DNA of 38,663 nt from Verrucomicrobiota bacterium (lineage in GTDB: Bacteria > Verrucomicrobiota > Verrucomicrobiia > JADLBR01), in the NCBI GenBank assembly GCA_029560585.1, contig JAKQKQ010000205.1, positions 1-38,663 on the forward strand. The letters are read 5' to 3'. The translations under genes were made by a program, and so were the position numbers. Under the pieces are notes generated by a model, which did not search any database, had not been told where the DNA came from, and saw only the letters and a list, made by a program, of their open reading frames with translations. Position 1 is the first letter of the stretch. Each line of letters begins with the position of its first letter. Positions 3,985 to 38,663 of the stretch are shown piece by piece.

Positions 3985-4336
3985 TTAACGCGCGGGTCCG
4001 CCGGGTGATTCGTGGGGAGGCTTCTGCGGGCGCGATTGCTTTTGGATTGCGGTGGCAGAGCGAAGCGACGACACTGCTTCAGCACCGGGCGGGACGCCGG
4101 CTTCGCCGGTCGCTGATAGCGGCGGCGACGCCGCTGCTCTCCAAGACGCGAGGGGCGGGACTTTTTGGAGTGCGGCGCGCGAACGCGCCGCTTTGGCCGT
4201 TAGTCCGGCACAGGCCAAACGGTGGCGCCGTCCGGCGGTTGCCGGGCTCTGCCACCGCAGTCCAAAACCCTCCCGGCCCGGATTCTGGGTCGGGGCACGA
4301 TCCGCACCCGCGAAAAGTGCCCGAAGTTTCTCGCTA
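3985..4336. repeat. Dispersed palindromic element, copy A (long, nested)
   Basis: The outer arms TTTTGGATTGCGGTGGC (4040-4056) and GCCACCGCAGTCCAAAA (4251-4267) are inverted, with one mismatch. Beyond the right arm, the sequence to the TTTCTCGCTAG end matches copies B and C. The loop of about 194 bp holds a second module (about 4125-4226) that also occurs at 38240-38345, next to a partial D copy. It fills the gap between the sugar dehydrogenase gene and the XylR-type gene, and no gene was recognised in this gap. The left boundary is diverged and approximate. Confidence 0.75.
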
Positions 4337-5368
4337 GGCGACGGGGACAGATTGGCCCGTGCGGACGGATTTTTCCTCCGCCTCGCAGATCTGGACGGCG
4401 GCGAGCCCATCGGCTTCGGTGACGATGGTGGGCTTGCGGCCGGCGAGGGCGGCCGAGACCGCATGGCGGAGTTCGGTCTCATAGCCGTCTGGGCCCGGGC
4501 AGGTGATCGTGCGCGGGGGTTCCCCTTCGGCGAAGAGCTTGAGGGCATCGGCGCCTCGGGCGATATCATAGTCGGCGGTGGCTCGCTCGAAATTGACGGT
4601 GTATGACATGTTGAAGCCGAAGCCCTTGGTCATGGCCCAGGACCCCTCCGCGTGGACGGCGGCGCCGGAGGCGACCTCGTACTGGGTGACGACGTGATCG
4701 ATGGCGCCGCTCAGCTTGCTGTATCCGCGCGAGCACACAGTCTTTGGTTTGCCGAAGCAGAACTGCACAAAGTCCGTGTCGTGGATGTGCAGGTCGAGGA
4801 GGGCGCCGCCGGACTTGGAGCCATCCATGAAGTTGCCCCAGCCCGGGGGTTCGGCCACGCGGCGGAAGCGTGCGGCAAGGACGCGCCCGTGGGTTTTCTC
4901 TTCGATGGTTTTCTTGAGCCATGCCCACTCGGGCCAGAAGCGGATGCACATGGCGGGCATGAGGAAACCGCGGGCGCCCCTGGCGGCATCGATCATCTGC
5001 TGGCAGAGGGCGCTGGTGCGGGCCATGGGCTTCTCGCAGACGACGTGCTTGCCGGCGCGCAGCGCCGCGATCGCGATGTCGGGGTGCAAGTGGGTAGGCA
5101 CGCAGATATCGATCAGGTCGATCGCGGGATTCGACAGGAGGTCGTGGTAGTCCTTGATCGCCTTGGTGCGGGACATGTCGAGTTTCACGGTCTGGCCGTC
5201 TCCGACGTTGCCCTGGATGCCCGAGAAATCTCCGTTCTCGGGGAGGCGGACGGCATCGCAGATGGCGGCGATGCGCGCCTCGGCGATCTTCATGTAGGCC
5301 TTGATGTGGGTGAGGCCCATGAACCCGCACCCCACGATGGCGACGTTAACTTCCTTCTTTTGAGTCAT
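4334..5368 (-). CDS. Gfo/Idh/MocA-family oxidoreductase
   Basis: 344 residues. The N-terminal Rossmann motif VAIVGCGFMG (9-18) binds NAD(P). CEKP (111-114) carries the family's catalytic lysine, and GGALLDLHIHDTDF (187-200) is the conserved C-terminal substrate/active-site segment. Members oxidise sugars, inositols or sugar acids; the substrate here is unknown. The ATG has AGGA about 10 nt upstream. The gene lies about 65 bp downstream of the sugar isomerase-like gene on the same strand, so the two probably form one transcript for sugar conversion. Its TAG stop sits inside the terminal CTAG of repeat copy A. Confidence 0.92.
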   Translation of the reverse strand: MTQKKEVNVAIVGCGFMGLTHIKAYMKIAEARIAAICDAVRLPENGDFSGIQGNVGDGQTVKLDMSRTKAIKDYHDLLSNPAIDLIDICVPTHLHPDIAIAALRAGKHVVCEKPMARTSALCQQMIDAARGARGFLMPAMCIRFWPEWAWLKKTIEEKTHGRVLAARFRRVAEPPGWGNFMDGSKSGGALLDLHIHDTDFVQFCFGKPKTVCSRGYSKLSGAIDHVVTQYEVASGAAVHAEGSWAMTKGFGFNMSYTVNFERATADYDIARGADALKLFAEGEPPRTITCPGPDGYETELRHAVSAALAGRKPTIVTEADGLAAVQICEAEEKSVRTGQSVPVA

Positions 5369-5433
5369 GATAATCGTGTCCTTTCCTTGGGTTGGCTTGC
5401 GTTCCGGTGGGCTTCCCTGGGCCCAACGGGCCG

Positions 5434-7222: not shown

Positions 7223-8152
7223 ATGCCACGCAAATTGAGCCACATCGCACCGGACTGGTGGGACTACACGACGCTGGAGGGCGACCTCATCAACGACGCG
7301 GCGAGGTTGACTGACCGGGATCTGGAGGAGCTTTCGCGGCCGGGGTTCAAGGTGGTGATGTACGAGACGCTGGAGGATTTCTATCTGGCGGAGGCGCTGG
7401 AATACATCGGCGCGTGGCGGCAGGCAACGGCGGACAAGCCGGCGGGCATCTGTGGGCCTATCGGGCCGACGGAGCAATTGCCCCTGGTGGCGCGCCTGGT
7501 CAACGAGCTTGGGATCAGCCTGCGGCACGCGCACTTCTGGGGGATGGACGAGTGGTACCATGACGACCGCGAGGTGCCGATGAGCCATCCGCTGTCGTTC
7601 GAGCGCGCGGACCGCGAGCTGTGTTTTGGCCGCATCCGGAAGGAACTGGCGATGCCCGAGGCGAACCTGCATTTCCCGAAGGCCGAGACGGGCACCTACA
7701 CGAAGAGCTGGGATGGCGTGCGGTGCGTCGTGATGCAGGGGGGGCAGGGCGACATCAAGCACTGGGCGTTCAACGATCCGCCGAAGCGGGAGGGCAAATA
7801 CAAAGACAACCCGCCGAAGCCCGAGGAATACCGCGCGCTGGGGACACGGGTCGTGGACCTGCACCCCGTGACGCTGGCCCAGAACGCCCGGACTTCCGGG
7901 GGCGGCAACATCACCATGGTGCCGGCCAAGGCGATCACGGTCGGGCCGCGCGAGACTTGGAGGGCGGAGAAGGTTTCGATCTGGCAGGCGGGGGCGCACG
8001 ACAACGCGCTCGGGCAGCGGCTCACGGCGCTCATGATCTCAAAGCGGATCCCGGATTCGGCGGTGCCGATGTCGCTGCTGGCGGACCACCCGAACGTGCA
8101 GTTTAACTACTATCGTGGCGGATTGGGTTCCTGCGCGGTTGAGATGCATTGA
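7223..8152 (+). CDS. NagB-like glucosamine-6-phosphate isomerase/deaminase family protein
   Basis: 309 residues. It has the NagB/phosphogluconolactonase-type signature MDEW (108-111, equivalent to the MDEY of NagB). The [14 protein letters not shown] segment (173-186) corresponds to GxGxDGHIAFNEP of NagB. D177 and H180 of the catalytic dyad are kept, but the surrounding glycine is changed and the final Glu is Asp. True NagB is about 260 residues, so this is a longer, divergent member that may act on a different amino sugar. It has a good ribosome-binding site (GGGAG, about 9 nt). It probably forms an operon with the preceding PIG-L deacetylase gene and ends next to repeat copy B. Confidence 0.82.
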
Positions 8153-8173: not shown

Positions 8174-8366
8174 GCGCTAGCCAGGAGCTTCGGGCGCTGT
8201 TCGCGGGCGCGACTCATGCCCCGACCCAGGATCCGGGCCGAGAGGGTTTTGGACTGCGGTGGCGCCGTCCGGCGGTTGCCGGACTCTGCCACCGCAGTCC
8301 AAAACGGCACCGCCCTCGGGAGTTTCATCATGAATAATCCGGCGCGTGGACGACTCTGGCTAGCGC
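8174..8366. repeat. Dispersed palindromic element, copy B (compact, with terminal inverted repeats)
   Basis: The ends are a perfect 11-bp inverted repeat: GCGCTAGCCAG at 8174-8184 and CTGGCTAGCGC at 8356-8366. Inside are 17-bp perfect inverted arms, TTTTGGACTGCGGTGGC (8247-8263) and GCCACCGCAGTCCAAAA (8288-8304). It lies between the convergent NagB-like and LRR-protein genes. The TAG stop of the LRR gene is part of the right terminal CTAG. It can form a large hairpin and may act as a bidirectional terminator. Copy C resembles its reverse complement across nearly the whole length. Confidence 0.85.
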
Positions 8367-10354
8367 GACTCGCCCCTCTTGCCGCTGTGCGAGGCGATGT
8401 ATTCTTTCACGGGAATGGGGAGCCCATTCTCGTAGACCGTGGCGATCGCGGCGTGCTTTTCGAGCACGGGGATCGCGTTAACGCCGGGGGGCAGGGACAC
8501 TGCGGAGAGGGATTTGAGCGAGAGGAGGAACTGGAGGTCGTTGACCTTCCTGCAGCCGTTCAGGAAGAGGGTGACGAGGTTTGGCAAACTGTCCCGAACC
8601 ATGGCCATATCGTCATTGCCGGCCGATGTGCCATCGAGCAAAAGCGTCGTCAGCGGCATGCCGCGGAGCGAAGACAGGTCGTTCACTCTTGGGCAACCGG
8701 TCAAGTCCAGGCTGATGAGGGGCATGCCGGCGAGGGGCGATAGGTCGGAGAGGGCGGGGCAATAGTTGAAAGCGAGAACGGTGATCTGTTTTTTGGCGAG
8801 GGGGCGGAGATCGGTTAGGGTGGAAGTGGAAATGATCAGCCAATCCAAGGGGGCGGTCGCGAGCGGGCTGAGGTCGGCGAGATACATGCAGTGCAGAATT
8901 TTCAGCGGCATCTCCGCGAGGGGGCGGTAATCGGAGACGTTGGATCCCCAGAGGTAGAGGGATTGGAGTGGGGCTCTTGAGAGGGGACGGATGTCGATGA
9001 GCGCGGCGCATGCCGAGGCATTGAGATTTGTCAGGGGCGTGCCGGTCAAGGGTTTGAGATCGGCGATCAGGGTCTCGGCGATGGTGAGATCCTTGAGGGG
9101 GGCACCCTCGAGGCCGGCGAGGGTCTTGATTCTTGATCTGTAGAGATTGAGTGATTCGAGGGGGGCACCCTTGATGGCGCGGAGGTCTGTAATCGCGGCG
9201 TTGGTGAGGGATAAGGTTCGCAGGGGGCAACCCTCGATCCCGCGCAATGACTCCACGGGCGTTCCGTCGAGGATGAGGCGCTCCAGCGGCATGGCTTTCA
9301 GGGGAACCAGGGAGCGCACGCCGGTCCCGGTGAGATCGAGGTCGCAGATGGGGAGTTTCTCCAGGGGCGAGAGATCCTTGAGTCTGGCGTTGCCGGAGAG
9401 GTCGAGTTCGACCTTTCCATCGCGGATGAGGTGGCCGGCCTTCAGGGTCCCGTCGATGGAGTTTTTCCGCTTGAGTGCGTCGATCGCCGTGGCCACGTCG
9501 GCATCGCCGGTCCTGCGAGAGCGAATGCCGGCCTCGGCCAGGGCGGCGGCGATCAATGCCCAGGTGTTGGCAACCTTGGTTTGCGAGAAGCGGTTGGTGA
9601 AGACCGTTGCCTGTTCTCGCAGGACTGGCGCGAGGCTGGCCCCGAACTCCTTGCCCTGAACGGCATCGAGCAATTGATCGGTTGGCGCACGTTCGGAGCC
9701 AAAGCCGGCTTTATCCAGCAGCTGGCGGAGGGCGCGCTCGGCGTCACGTTCCAACGATTCTGACTGGGCGCTCTGGAGGGAGGCGAGGAGGTGGGCGGCC
9801 AGCGGGGCGTCGGCGACGTTGCGCAGGGTTTCGGTCGCCTCATCGACCAGGCCCGCGCGCAGCGCATCCAGGGCTTCCACGATCACCTTCTCCGTCTCGG
9901 TATAGCCCTTCAGGCGACGGGCCCTTTCGACCTCGGTGAGCGTGGCCACGTTCAGGGTTTCCTCGACAAAGCCCTTGCCGGCGGAGACTCGCAGGCGCAC
10001 CTCGTTGCCGGTGACGCCTGCAACCGTGGCGGCGAAGGTGCCCCGCGGCGAAACGATCATGACCGTCTTGCCAACGTCTTCGCGGAAGGAGTCGCCGACC
10101 ACGGTGGGCCATTTGAGGATGCGGAGCGCCTGGGCCGCGATGGCCTTCCAATCCAACGGCGCCCCATCGGGCCGTGGGTCATTTGCGAGCTTTTGTGCTG
10201 CATCCGTGTCGTTATCCAGCAGCGCCTTGGCGAGGCGGTCGAGCGGGTCTTGGCCCATGCGCACGGGTTCCGCGGCGGGCGAGGACCACAACCCGCACAT
10301 CATCGTACCGAGGCACGCCACACGCAGAAAAATGGCACATGGTATCGGTCGCAT
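8360..10354 (-). CDS. Exported leucine-rich-repeat protein
   Basis: About 664 residues from the ATG at 10354, which has GAGGG 7 nt upstream; starts at 10375 and 10441 are possible but less well supported. A signal peptide is visible (MRPIPCAIFLRVACLGTMMC, with cleavage near SSPAAEP). Residues of about 30-320 form an unrecognised alpha/beta region. From about 320 to 575 there are roughly a dozen degenerate leucine-rich repeats of about 23 residues with the pattern DLxPLxxxPLxxLxL. No catalytic domain is recognised. A surface or periplasmic binding role is the most that can be said. It converges on the NagB-like gene with repeat copy B between them. Confidence 0.75.
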   Translation of the reverse strand: MRPIPCAIFLRVACLGTMMCGLWSSPAAEPVRMGQDPLDRLAKALLDNDTDAAQKLANDPRPDGAPLDWKAIAAQALRILKWPTVVGDSFREDVGKTVMIVSPRGTFAATVAGVTGNEVRLRVSAGKGFVEETLNVATLTEVERARRLKGYTETEKVIVEALDALRAGLVDEATETLRNVADAPLAAHLLASLQSAQSESLERDAERALRQLLDKAGFGSERAPTDQLLDAVQGKEFGASLAPVLREQATVFTNRFSQTKVANTWALIAAALAEAGIRSRRTGDADVATAIDALKRKNSIDGTLKAGHLIRDGKVELDLSGNARLKDLSPLEKLPICDLDLTGTGVRSLVPLKAMPLERLILDGTPVESLRGIEGCPLRTLSLTNAAITDLRAIKGAPLESLNLYRSRIKTLAGLEGAPLKDLTIAETLIADLKPLTGTPLTNLNASACAALIDIRPLSRAPLQSLYLWGSNVSDYRPLAEMPLKILHCMYLADLSPLATAPLDWLIISTSTLTDLRPLAKKQITVLAFNYCPALSDLSPLAGMPLISLDLTGCPRVNDLSSLRGMPLTTLLLDGTSAGNDDMAMVRDSLPNLVTLFLNGCRKVNDLQFLLSLKSLSAVSLPPGVNAIPVLEKHAAIATVYENGLPIPVKEYIASHSGKRGESR

Positions 10355-16236: not shown

Positions 16237-16737
16237 TCTGGCACTGGCGGAGCGCTTTGGCCCTGCGGCCCGTTGAGAAGGGTCATCGGAGCCCGTGCTG
16301 GTTCGCCGCCGCGAATCTCCAGCGGGCGGGCCCGCGGCCTGAGCGTGTCGCAAAACCTCTGAGCGGAGCCGCCTGGCACAGGCGGCCTACAAATTTTGTA
16401 GGGCATCTCTGTGAGATGCCGTGCATTGTAGCGCGCCGCACACCATTGGACGTCCCCTCTACCATCAGATGGGCATTGATTGTTGGGTGTTCCGTGTTGG
16501 GCGTTTGAGTTTTGAGACAGCCTCGCCTCGCTGGCCGAGTTGGCCCGGGTGTTGCGCGGCTGGTGAATCGCGGACGCCGGGGACGGCGTCCCTCCCAACT
16601 GATACTGAGACGCCATCGTGGAGGTGATGATCTGGCGTTGTCGTCGAGTGGTGATGCCCGTTGCGCCGCTTGGGTGCGTGGCGCTGGAGCGGGCATGCCG
16701 ACTCGACGCGCGAACCACGTTCCGCTACGCTGCTGCC
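16237..16737. repeat. Intergenic repeat-rich segment with successive hairpins
   Basis: No convincing gene was found here. Three hairpins follow closely: CCGCCTG-GCA-CAGGCGG (about 16370-16386), CTACAAA with TTTGTAG (about 16387-16401), and GGCATCTC-TGT-GAGATGCC (about 16403-16421). A 35-bp repeat with a GACGCCG-GGGA-CGGCGTC hairpin sits at 16562-16596 and recurs at 31922-31956. The segment looks like an accumulation site for short palindromic repeats downstream of the fucosidase operon. Confidence 0.6.
16562..16596. repeat. 35-bp hairpin repeat, copy 1
   Basis: Matches 31922-31956 at 34 of 35 bases. The core GACGCCG-GGGA-CGGCGTC forms a 7-bp stem. It lies in an intergenic region upstream of the alpha/beta hydrolase gene. 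Confidence 0.65.
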
Positions 16738-20789: not shown

Positions 20790-21142
20790 GGGTTGATTCT
20801 GAAGGCTCGTCATCAAGTTGCAAGGCTCGTCCTGAAACGTGGGCTAACCAATAGATTTAAACCACGGATATCGTTCATGGCACGGGCAAGCCCGAAACGT
20901 TCGGGCACGAGGGCCAAGGAACCTGCTCGCGGGCGATTCGAATCGCGCGCAAGCGCGCTCCTGCGCTCGATTTCTCTTCCCGGTCGTCCGGCGGCCACCG
21001 GGCACAGCTGGCTCACGCTTCCCGCTGCAGCTTTGACAAGTGTCGGGCGATGGCTTTCTCCTTGACCTAGGCAACACCGGGGAGTCAGCATTTTTTTGCG
21101 CCCAGCGCATTGTCACGGGGCGTGGCAGGAAGGAGATTCACC
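20790..21142. other. Divergent intergenic region, 353 bp
   Basis: This region separates the ceramidase-like and isomerase-like genes. No gene was recognised. It holds small hairpins (CGGGCAAGCCCG near 20884; CCCGAAACGTTCGGG near 20891) and a REP-like palindromic segment at 20940-20961, whose exact reverse complement occurs at 38481-38502. TTGACA near 21036 lacks a good -10 partner. Confidence 0.5.
20940..20961 (-). repeat. REP-like 22-bp palindromic repeat, copy 1
   Basis: Contains the dyad GCGCGC-AA-GCGCGC. All 22 bases are the exact reverse complement of 38481-38502. It resembles bacterial REP sequences in size, GC content and intergenic position. Confidence 0.55.
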
Positions 21143-30768: not shown

Positions 30769-31086
30769 CGGGCGTACAATGGATTCGGGAAGGAACGGGT
30801 GTCGGCCGGGAAGGGGCCGAGGAACGAGGCGTGGTGGGAGGGGATGCAGGTAGCCGGGAGGTGCCGACGTGGGTGAGGCGCCTGGTGATGGCGCAAGGGG
30901 TGTGCCTGACCAAGGAGACGCTCTGTTGGTGAAATATTCACCGATCCCGTTGGATGGGATGTTGCCGAAGTCGGGGGGCGGTGCAAGCGCGAAGGGGGGA
31001 GGGGGTGCTGGGTACTCAGGGCTTTTGGTTATTCGACGGCAACCTGTTGGAGGTCAGCACCGCCCCCGGCGCGCCGGGGCGGCGCC

Positions 31087-31358
31087 AGCCAGAGTTGTCC
31101 ACGCGCCGGATTATTCATGATGAAACTTCTGGGGGCGGGGCCGTTTTGGACTGCGGTGGCAGAGCGAAGCGGCGTCACCGCTTTTGCCTCCGGCGGAGCC
31201 GAGACCGATGGCCCCGGCTCGCGCTTCGCGCGCTGCCAAAGCGGTGGCGCCGTCCGGCGGTTGCCGCACTTTGCCACCGCAGTCCAAAACCCTCCCAGCG
31301 CGGATCCTGGGTCGGGCACGAGCCGCGCACGCGATCAGCGCCCGAAGTTTCTGGCTAG
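31087..31358. repeat. Dispersed palindromic element, copy C
   Basis: The inverted arms are TTTTGGACTGCGGTGGC (31144-31160) and GCCACCGCAGTCCAAAA (31273-31289), perfect 17-bp matches to copy B. The outer flanks match the reverse complement of copy B, including ATTATTCATGATGAAACT on the left. The right end keeps CTGGCTAG (31351-31358); the left end reads AGCCAGAG without CTAG. The loop is 112 bp. Confidence 0.8.
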
Positions 31359-31921
31359 CCTTTAGGCTGAATCGGGCGCGAAACGGGCTAGAGCCTGGAC
31401 TCCAACGGCTTCGGTCGAGCGAACGAAAAGCTCTGGCTGGGTTCTGGGTGCCGGGTCAATGGTTGGGGCGGAAGAGGGCTTCGAAGTGGCCTTTTCCGTT
31501 CCATGGGCCCCGTGAACTCTTTGGTGTGAAAGGTCTGGCCGTTGCGGCTGGCAGGGGGTCCTTGCGGCGTGGCCGGGGGCCGGTGTGGCGTGGGAGGGGG
31601 CCGTTGCGCCACCGTCAGGAGCGACGGCGGTGCCTATGCCGTTTTCACGCTTGTACCGTCGAAGGTGGGCGCGCCAGACGGGGCACCGTACGGCCCGTGG
31701 CCTCCTGTGAAAGGATGCACGGATCGATGCGTTCGCTGGACTCGCGCTTGGCACGCTCAGGCCTGATCGCATTCTCGCCTTAATCCCCGAAATGAACCCC
31801 GCTTCCTGCGAAGTCCCAAAACCGCGGGCAAATGAACAACCCGCGATTTCGAAGGCAACAGATTTCTATCCCGGATTTCTATCCGAGTTCACGGGGGCCG
31901 CGCAGGATGGGTTTGATCGCG

Positions 31922-31956
31922 GGTGAACCGCGGACGCCGGGGACGGCGTCCCTCCC
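31922..31956. repeat. 35-bp hairpin repeat, copy 2
   Basis: Second copy of the repeat at 16562-16596, one base different (C for T in the GTGAAYCGCGG part), in the same orientation and again intergenic, about 100 bp upstream of the prenyl-synthase gene. Confidence 0.65.
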
Positions 31957-38208: not shown

Positions 38209-38663
38209 TCGGGGCCGTTTTCGACGCGGTGGCCGAGTGAAGCGGCGACGCCGCCGCACTCCAAAACGCGAGGGGCGGGATTTTTTTGGAGTGCGGCGCG
38301 CAAACGCGCCGCTTTGGCCGTTCGTCCGGCACAGCCCAAGCGGTGGCGCGGGCAATTCTGCCCGCGACGGCGGCCAAGGCACGCGGCGGCAGGCAGGATT
38401 GCCCGCGTCACGGCAGCGGGAGTTCTTGAGTCATCGTGCCCCCGCGGACGGGGCGCAACCGGGGGTGAAAAAGAGACGTGGGAGCGCGCTTGCGCGCGAT
38501 TCGCGCACGGGATCGCCTGCAAGCTGAATCGCGCCAACGCAGTTGAGAAAGTGAACTTAGGCGAACTTAGGCGGCAATACGCTTAAAGGCAGTGGGTTGC
38601 GCGAGTGTTCGGCAAGAACGGCTAGTTGAGACAAAAAGGGGGATTTGGGGCGGAATGACAAGC
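38209..38663. repeat. Right-end intergenic region with partial dispersed repeat, copy D
   Basis: No gene was recognised. From about 38210 the bases GGGGCCGTTTTCGACGCGGTGGC recall the left arm of copies B and C (here GCCGTTTTCGACGCGGTGGC). The segment at about 38240-38345, with the hairpin GCGGCGCG-CAAA-CGCGCCGC, matches the nested module of copy A. It then continues into unrelated sequence with a REP-like repeat at 38481-38502. The right arm of the element is missing. Confidence 0.65.
38481..38502 (+). repeat. REP-like 22-bp palindromic repeat, copy 2
   Basis: Exact reverse complement of 20940-20961, containing GCGCGC-TT-GCGCGC. The flanks are not shared, so only this core is repeated. Confidence 0.55.

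Follow-up and report, generated by a model that had tools for sequence, protein, structure and literature searches.

The described repeats that come closest to those reported here are the GTAG-tagged REPs and BIMEs (PMC3733652; PMC2817692), which are likewise high-copy, extragenic, palindromic and mosaic, and in which the verrucomicrobial species Opitutus terrae was reported to be rich (PMC3733652; PMC2817692). The ends of GTAG REPs frequently serve as TAG stop codons (PMC3733652), much as the left ends of the family described here often lie on stop codons, and the characterised TnpAREP enzymes cleave at C|T (PMC8266576). REP/BIME biology, including ends overlapping stop codons, is already known. 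The present family shares with REPs, BIMEs and REPINs a high copy number outside genes and a stable palindromic stem-loop, but no cognate RAYT gene flanked by the repeats was found. Its elements measure approximately 278 bp, compared to 20–40 bp for REPs and BIMEs, they carry CTRR and an 11-nt constant head where those have a GTAG (or CGTC) foot at the hairpin, and unlike GTAG REPs they use any of the three stop codons and have a genus-specific right tag.

REPINs contain two inverted core units per element (PMC3116915), as does our family, but here the core pair sits inside further constant ends and can be replaced by other palindromes. Y1 genes with the GGGGWSAS ends of the TIRYT/TIR repeats (PMC3733652) exist in the genome studied here, whereas the ends of the family do not belong to the GGGGWSAS type, and those Y1 genes are not flanked by them. 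IS-derived MITEs resemble the family in size, in the inverted terminal sequence of some copies and in lacking an internal transposase gene; unlike these, our family shows no matching target duplication, and no parent element was present in the loci examined. A limited literature search yielded neither a description of these repeats in Verrucomicrobia nor any case in which genus-specific constant ends occur together with exchangeable cargo and with a position directly on any of the three stop codons.

Copies in the window and anatomy of the element

The window, the stretch of 38,663 nt that was analysed, is the complete contig C233 of a Verrucomicrobiia MAG (G000; 7.06 Mb, 336 contigs, 95.7% complete), and the sister genome G001 was the sole genome of the same genus in the comparison set. 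The initial annotation had grouped four sequences in the window (A to D) as one dispersed palindromic family. Copies A, B and C are indeed related, with pairwise arms of 76–118 nt that are 81–93% alike; the 17-bp inverted arms are present in the window copies, as are the perfect 11-bp terminal repeats of copy B (GCGCTAGCCAG at 8174–8184 and CTGGCTAGCGC at 8356–8366). D was not retained as a member, as it has neither the left end (head) nor the right tag and resembles only the family core, matching the internal insert of copy A (94% over 67 nt). The suggestion that all copies are intergenic nearly holds, except that the stop codon of a neighbouring gene lies inside the head of A and inside the right-hand CTAG of B. 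The features of the window are as follows:

8177..8363, plus strand: copy B, short form, from left CTAG to right CTAG; best-matching query, with at least 97 matches in its own genome
8177..8191, plus strand: head of B, CTAG-CCAGGAGCTTC (family consensus CTRR-CCWGAAACTTC, from 87 collected left ends)
8246..8305, plus strand: core hairpin of B, with arms GTTTTGGACTGCGGTGGC and an inner loop inverted relative to most copies
8320..8346, plus strand: right tag of B, GAGTTTCATCATGAATAATCCGGCGCG, by direct reading; the family tag
8360..8362, minus strand: TAG stop of the minus-strand gene 8360–10279, within the right-hand CTAG of B (gene scoring)
3990..4337, minus strand: copy A, long form with internal insert; degenerate right tag at about 3999–4026
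4334..4336, minus strand: TAG stop of the minus-strand gene 4334–5383, which is the TRR of the head of A (TAG-CGAGAAACTTC)
31082..31358, minus strand: copy C, long form; head at 31344–31358
31102..31131, minus strand: right tag of C, CAGAAGTTTCATCATGAATAATCCGGCGCG, by direct reading
31053..31084, minus strand: GC-rich hairpin and CTGAC behind the right end of C, an arrangement shared by most long copies
38217..38350, strand not assigned: D, limited to core-type sequence and lacking both head and tag; excluded from the member count

The prediction that many copies would be found genome-wide was borne out, with at least 97 BLAST matches to copy B in G000 (40 of the 186 candidates were scored) and approximately 90 family copies in that genome. 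A search of G000 with the left-end pattern, allowing up to 3 mismatches, gave 98 matches, versus 10 for a reversed-pattern control, and 87 left ends were collected for the family consensus. The ends are constant across these 87 copies, with the head CTRR-CC(A/T)GAAACTTC on the left and the tag CAGAAGTTTCnnCATGAATnATnCGGCGCG on the right, the latter in most cases preceding a GC-rich hairpin and CTGAC. Consistent ends had also been anticipated, although not the right ones, as the GCTAGCCAG terminal inverted repeats that were taken to define the family, perfect in copy B, are not a general feature of it: no more than 15 of 38 copies have CTAG at the right end. The left tetramer was CTAG in 39 and CTGA in 21 of the 87 copies and is not copied at the right end, and copy B was the only one among the scorable cases with its right end at a stop codon.

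Most copies are approximately 278 bp in length, and this long form (named F1) starts with the head CTRR-CC(A/T)GAAACTTCGGGCG, after which come an approximately 70-bp left arm, a central pair of inverted core units (TTTTGGACTGCGGTGGC ... GCCACCGCAGTCCAAAA) and, on the right side, the tag CAGAAGTTTCnnCATGAATAATCCGGCGCG followed by TGGACGACTCTGGCTAG, with the GC-rich hairpin and CTGAC in most copies. The short form of copy B fits a deletion between GCGGTGGC repeats, with an inverted inner loop, and short forms of this kind probably arise by deletion between these internal repeats. The hairpin of copy B (8240–8312) has a predicted fold of −33.8 kcal/mol (z = −8.3). The core arms hardly vary within G000 and gave mixed covariation counts across genomes, with the consensus fold displaying two-sided changes in 2/86 pairs, hence almost no compensatory change. 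There was no match in Rfam at gathering scores, and viral contigs contained no match to the family core. An integron attC array was considered and set aside, as the copies are dispersed over many contigs rather than forming a cassette array at one locus.

Several contigs of the G000 assembly start or stop near a family copy (C127, C160, C240, C7, C98, C146 and C141), and C127, C160 and C240 have one left flank in common, a pattern suggestive of a fork in the assembly at the repeat. The window also contains another repeat, of the GGAGCCTGCTTGCAGGCGAT type with GGAGCGCGCTTGCGCGCGATTCG (20917–20962 and 38481–38503), which occurs at many G000 loci and is often located behind the head CTGACTCGAAAATTC. 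A 38-nt direct repeat (16559–16596 and 31919–31956, 95% alike; GAACCGCGGACGCCGGGGACGGCGTCCCTCCC) lies outside the palindromic family.

Distribution of the ends and the cargo

Matches to the right tag numbered 98 in G000 and 75 in G001, with none in the remaining 284 class genomes and 0 for the control, while the core unit was detected in 29/286 genomes, with 160 matches in G000 and 124 in G205, and also occurs in other contexts in other Verrucomicrobia MAGs. The ends are therefore genus-specific, but the core is not. In G001, what lies between the same head and tag is unrelated cargo, roughly 130 bp in length or longer; the right-hand part of this cargo is found at one place in G000, and a third cargo at another. 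A related head, CTRR-CYCGAAAATTS, had 460 matches in G000 with up to 2 mismatches, versus 34 for the control, and precedes several different palindromes there, with the larger set carrying it comprising about 430 copies. Exact matches to the related head numbered 44 in G000 and 108 in G001, with no more than 2 in each of the 101 other genomes sampled. The family is part of a larger set of repeats with common ends and different palindromic middles.

Position relative to stop codons

As the preferred left neighbour is CTRR, mostly CTAG or CTGA, the head is frequently located on a stop codon. Coding upstream flanks were identified using a codon-usage score trained on the long ORFs of the window and G001, and 44 F1 copies were testable, having an upstream flank that codes on their own strand; in 34 of them the stop codon of the upstream gene is exactly the TRR of the head. 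Within 530 gene ends of G001, chosen independently of the repeats, a related head was present at offset 0 in 21, and in 0–2 at each other offset. The base preceding such G001 stops is a C in 21/26, versus 27% across all G001 genes. In a null model of insertion at CTRR outside genes and up to 100 nt from the stop, 34–56% of copies are predicted at offset 0, depending on the weighting. The F1 share (77%) exceeds this under all weightings (p = 5e-9 to 0.0026), whereas the G001 heads (23/35 at offset 0) are clearly above it only with equal CTRR weights (p = 1e-4; otherwise 0.07–0.16), and the test is rough, as the weights derive partly from the tested copies themselves. This comparison indicates that the anchoring is largely due to CTRR preference and exclusion from genes, which together explain much, not all, of it, with some further excess in G000.

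The related-head set of G000 has 37/47 copies at a stop, but overlaps the F1 set and is hence not an independent test; its non-F1 heads, read by eye, are at distance 0 in roughly 15/20 cases. The identity of the triplet was associated with the bases that follow it in the head (TAG-CCAG 40, TAG-CCTG 2, TGA-CCAG 11 and TGA-CCTG 26), with a p-value of 4e-10 that is overstated, since related copies are not independent. Either subfamilies favour different targets, or the element carries its own triplet.

Comparison with 1.34 Mb of G001 provided 11 G000 genes with a head at the stop for which an orthologous or similar gene end was readable, at an identity of 70–88% at these genes, so these are not base-exact empty sites. 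The G001 counterpart lacked an element at the gene end in 7/11, and in the other 4/11 the stop is followed by another element of the superfamily; in several of these pairs the last bases (up to 86 nt) were unaligned, so that the stop there is not necessarily the same one. At L086/L365 the alignment reaches the same TGA, with no element following it in G001. Both flanks align at L062/L366, where G000 has a chain of roughly 540 bp between the stop codon and a terminator-like sequence common to both species. The G001 orthologue of the window gene 7240–8152 (L182, contig C288) ends in CTAG with another hairpin behind it, CAGCCTGTCGGACTTAGCCAAGTCCGACAAGGCTGCTAG, one more palindrome located immediately after a stop codon.

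Proposed mechanism and alternative explanations

The view of the initial annotation that these repeats are non-autonomous mobile DNA of the REP/BIME type remains the best one, as they are dispersed, high-copy and palindromic, with consistent ends. Our best explanation, to which we give about an even chance, is that they are non-autonomous, palindrome-rich mobile elements of the REP/REPIN type, spread by a Y1 (HuH) transposase presumed to cut at C|T. The elements would move as single-stranded DNA via a transposase supplied in trans, which would cut the C|T of CTRR and join the element there without target duplication. Selection would purge insertions within genes, allowing copies to survive at or after stop codons, and the right end would supply a new CTGA as the next target, which may give rise to head-to-tail chains. 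The preferred left tetranucleotide, oriented insertion, hairpins and lack of a matching duplication fit a Y1/HuH enzyme, and C|T is present at the element boundary. The length of the elements, far beyond that of a typical REP, and the missing GTAG tag count against this explanation, as do the scarcity of compensatory change in the consensus fold, the lack of a base-exact empty site at the genes compared, and the association of TAG/TGA with the following head bases, which fits a triplet belonging either to the target or to the element.

We infer this mechanism, because no transposase was linked to the repeats: none of the six Y1_Tnp loci in G000 is flanked by the family, no gene in the loci examined is bounded by family ends, and the proposed search for a transposase sharing the termini found none. 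As a lead only, the Y1_Tnp gene at L177 (contig C246 of G000) has GGGGTCAG upstream and CTGACCCC overlapping its stop codon, both of these sequences are near the Y1_Tnp gene at L178 on the same contig, and the Y1_Tnp genes at L168, L169 and L171 have a TGA stop followed by CCCC. The motifs at these five loci resemble the TIRYT ends described previously (PMC3733652).

The CTAG tetramers could alternatively point to a MITE of a DDE insertion sequence, moved in trans, with inverted ends CCAGAAACKTC and its complement and a CTAG duplication. YTAR targets are known for IS5 or IS701, CTAG is the commonest left tetramer of the family, and in some copies a left CTAG-CCAGAAACTTC is paired with GACGTTTCTGG-CTAG at the right end. 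We regard such an origin as rather unlikely, since a left CTGA, TTAG or CTGG is not repeated on the right, which leaves no matching target site duplication in such copies, most right ends continue into the GC-rich hairpin and CTGAC, and no insertion sequence with family ends was present among the loci examined. Mosaic junctions, deletion forms and inverted middles might also be expected from old repeats reshuffled by recombination, with modules swapped by homologous exchange between the common ends and no present transposition, but the genus-restricted ends, present at 75–98 copies in the two species, require the repeats to have spread inside the genus. Several copies are 92–95% identical to copy C, and orthologous genes are found without the element, which makes reshuffling alone a distinctly improbable account.

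The placement directly after stop codons may instead reflect functional 3′-UTR elements, kept there for mRNA stability, termination or translation and not by insertion preference, with the chain between stop codon and shared terminator-like sequence at L062/L366 being consistent with such a role. REPs up to 15 nt from a stop codon were reported to stall ribosomes (PMC12306157), which also favours a function at this position. There is only a small likelihood of this, as just a few per cent of genes have an element, orthologues have no element or an unrelated one, zero distance is not needed for mRNA function, and an intrinsic terminator has the opposite order to TTTT-hairpin-AAAA.

Returning to mobile elements of the REP/REPIN type, it is possible, albeit doubtful, that the repeats form a superfamily specific to the genus, comprising several hundred small elements with a common head and exchangeable palindromic cargo, inserted at stop codons (CTRR) by a single-strand enzyme distinct from the GTAG/RAYT system, where the stop is kept or regenerated and the gene is spared. 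Insertion at stop codons, if true, would offer repeats an easy route to multiplication in a gene-dense genome with no damage to genes. The common ends with different cargo in two sister species offer a natural experiment for telling which parts movement depends on, and the repeats set large hairpins beside the 3′ ends of genes.
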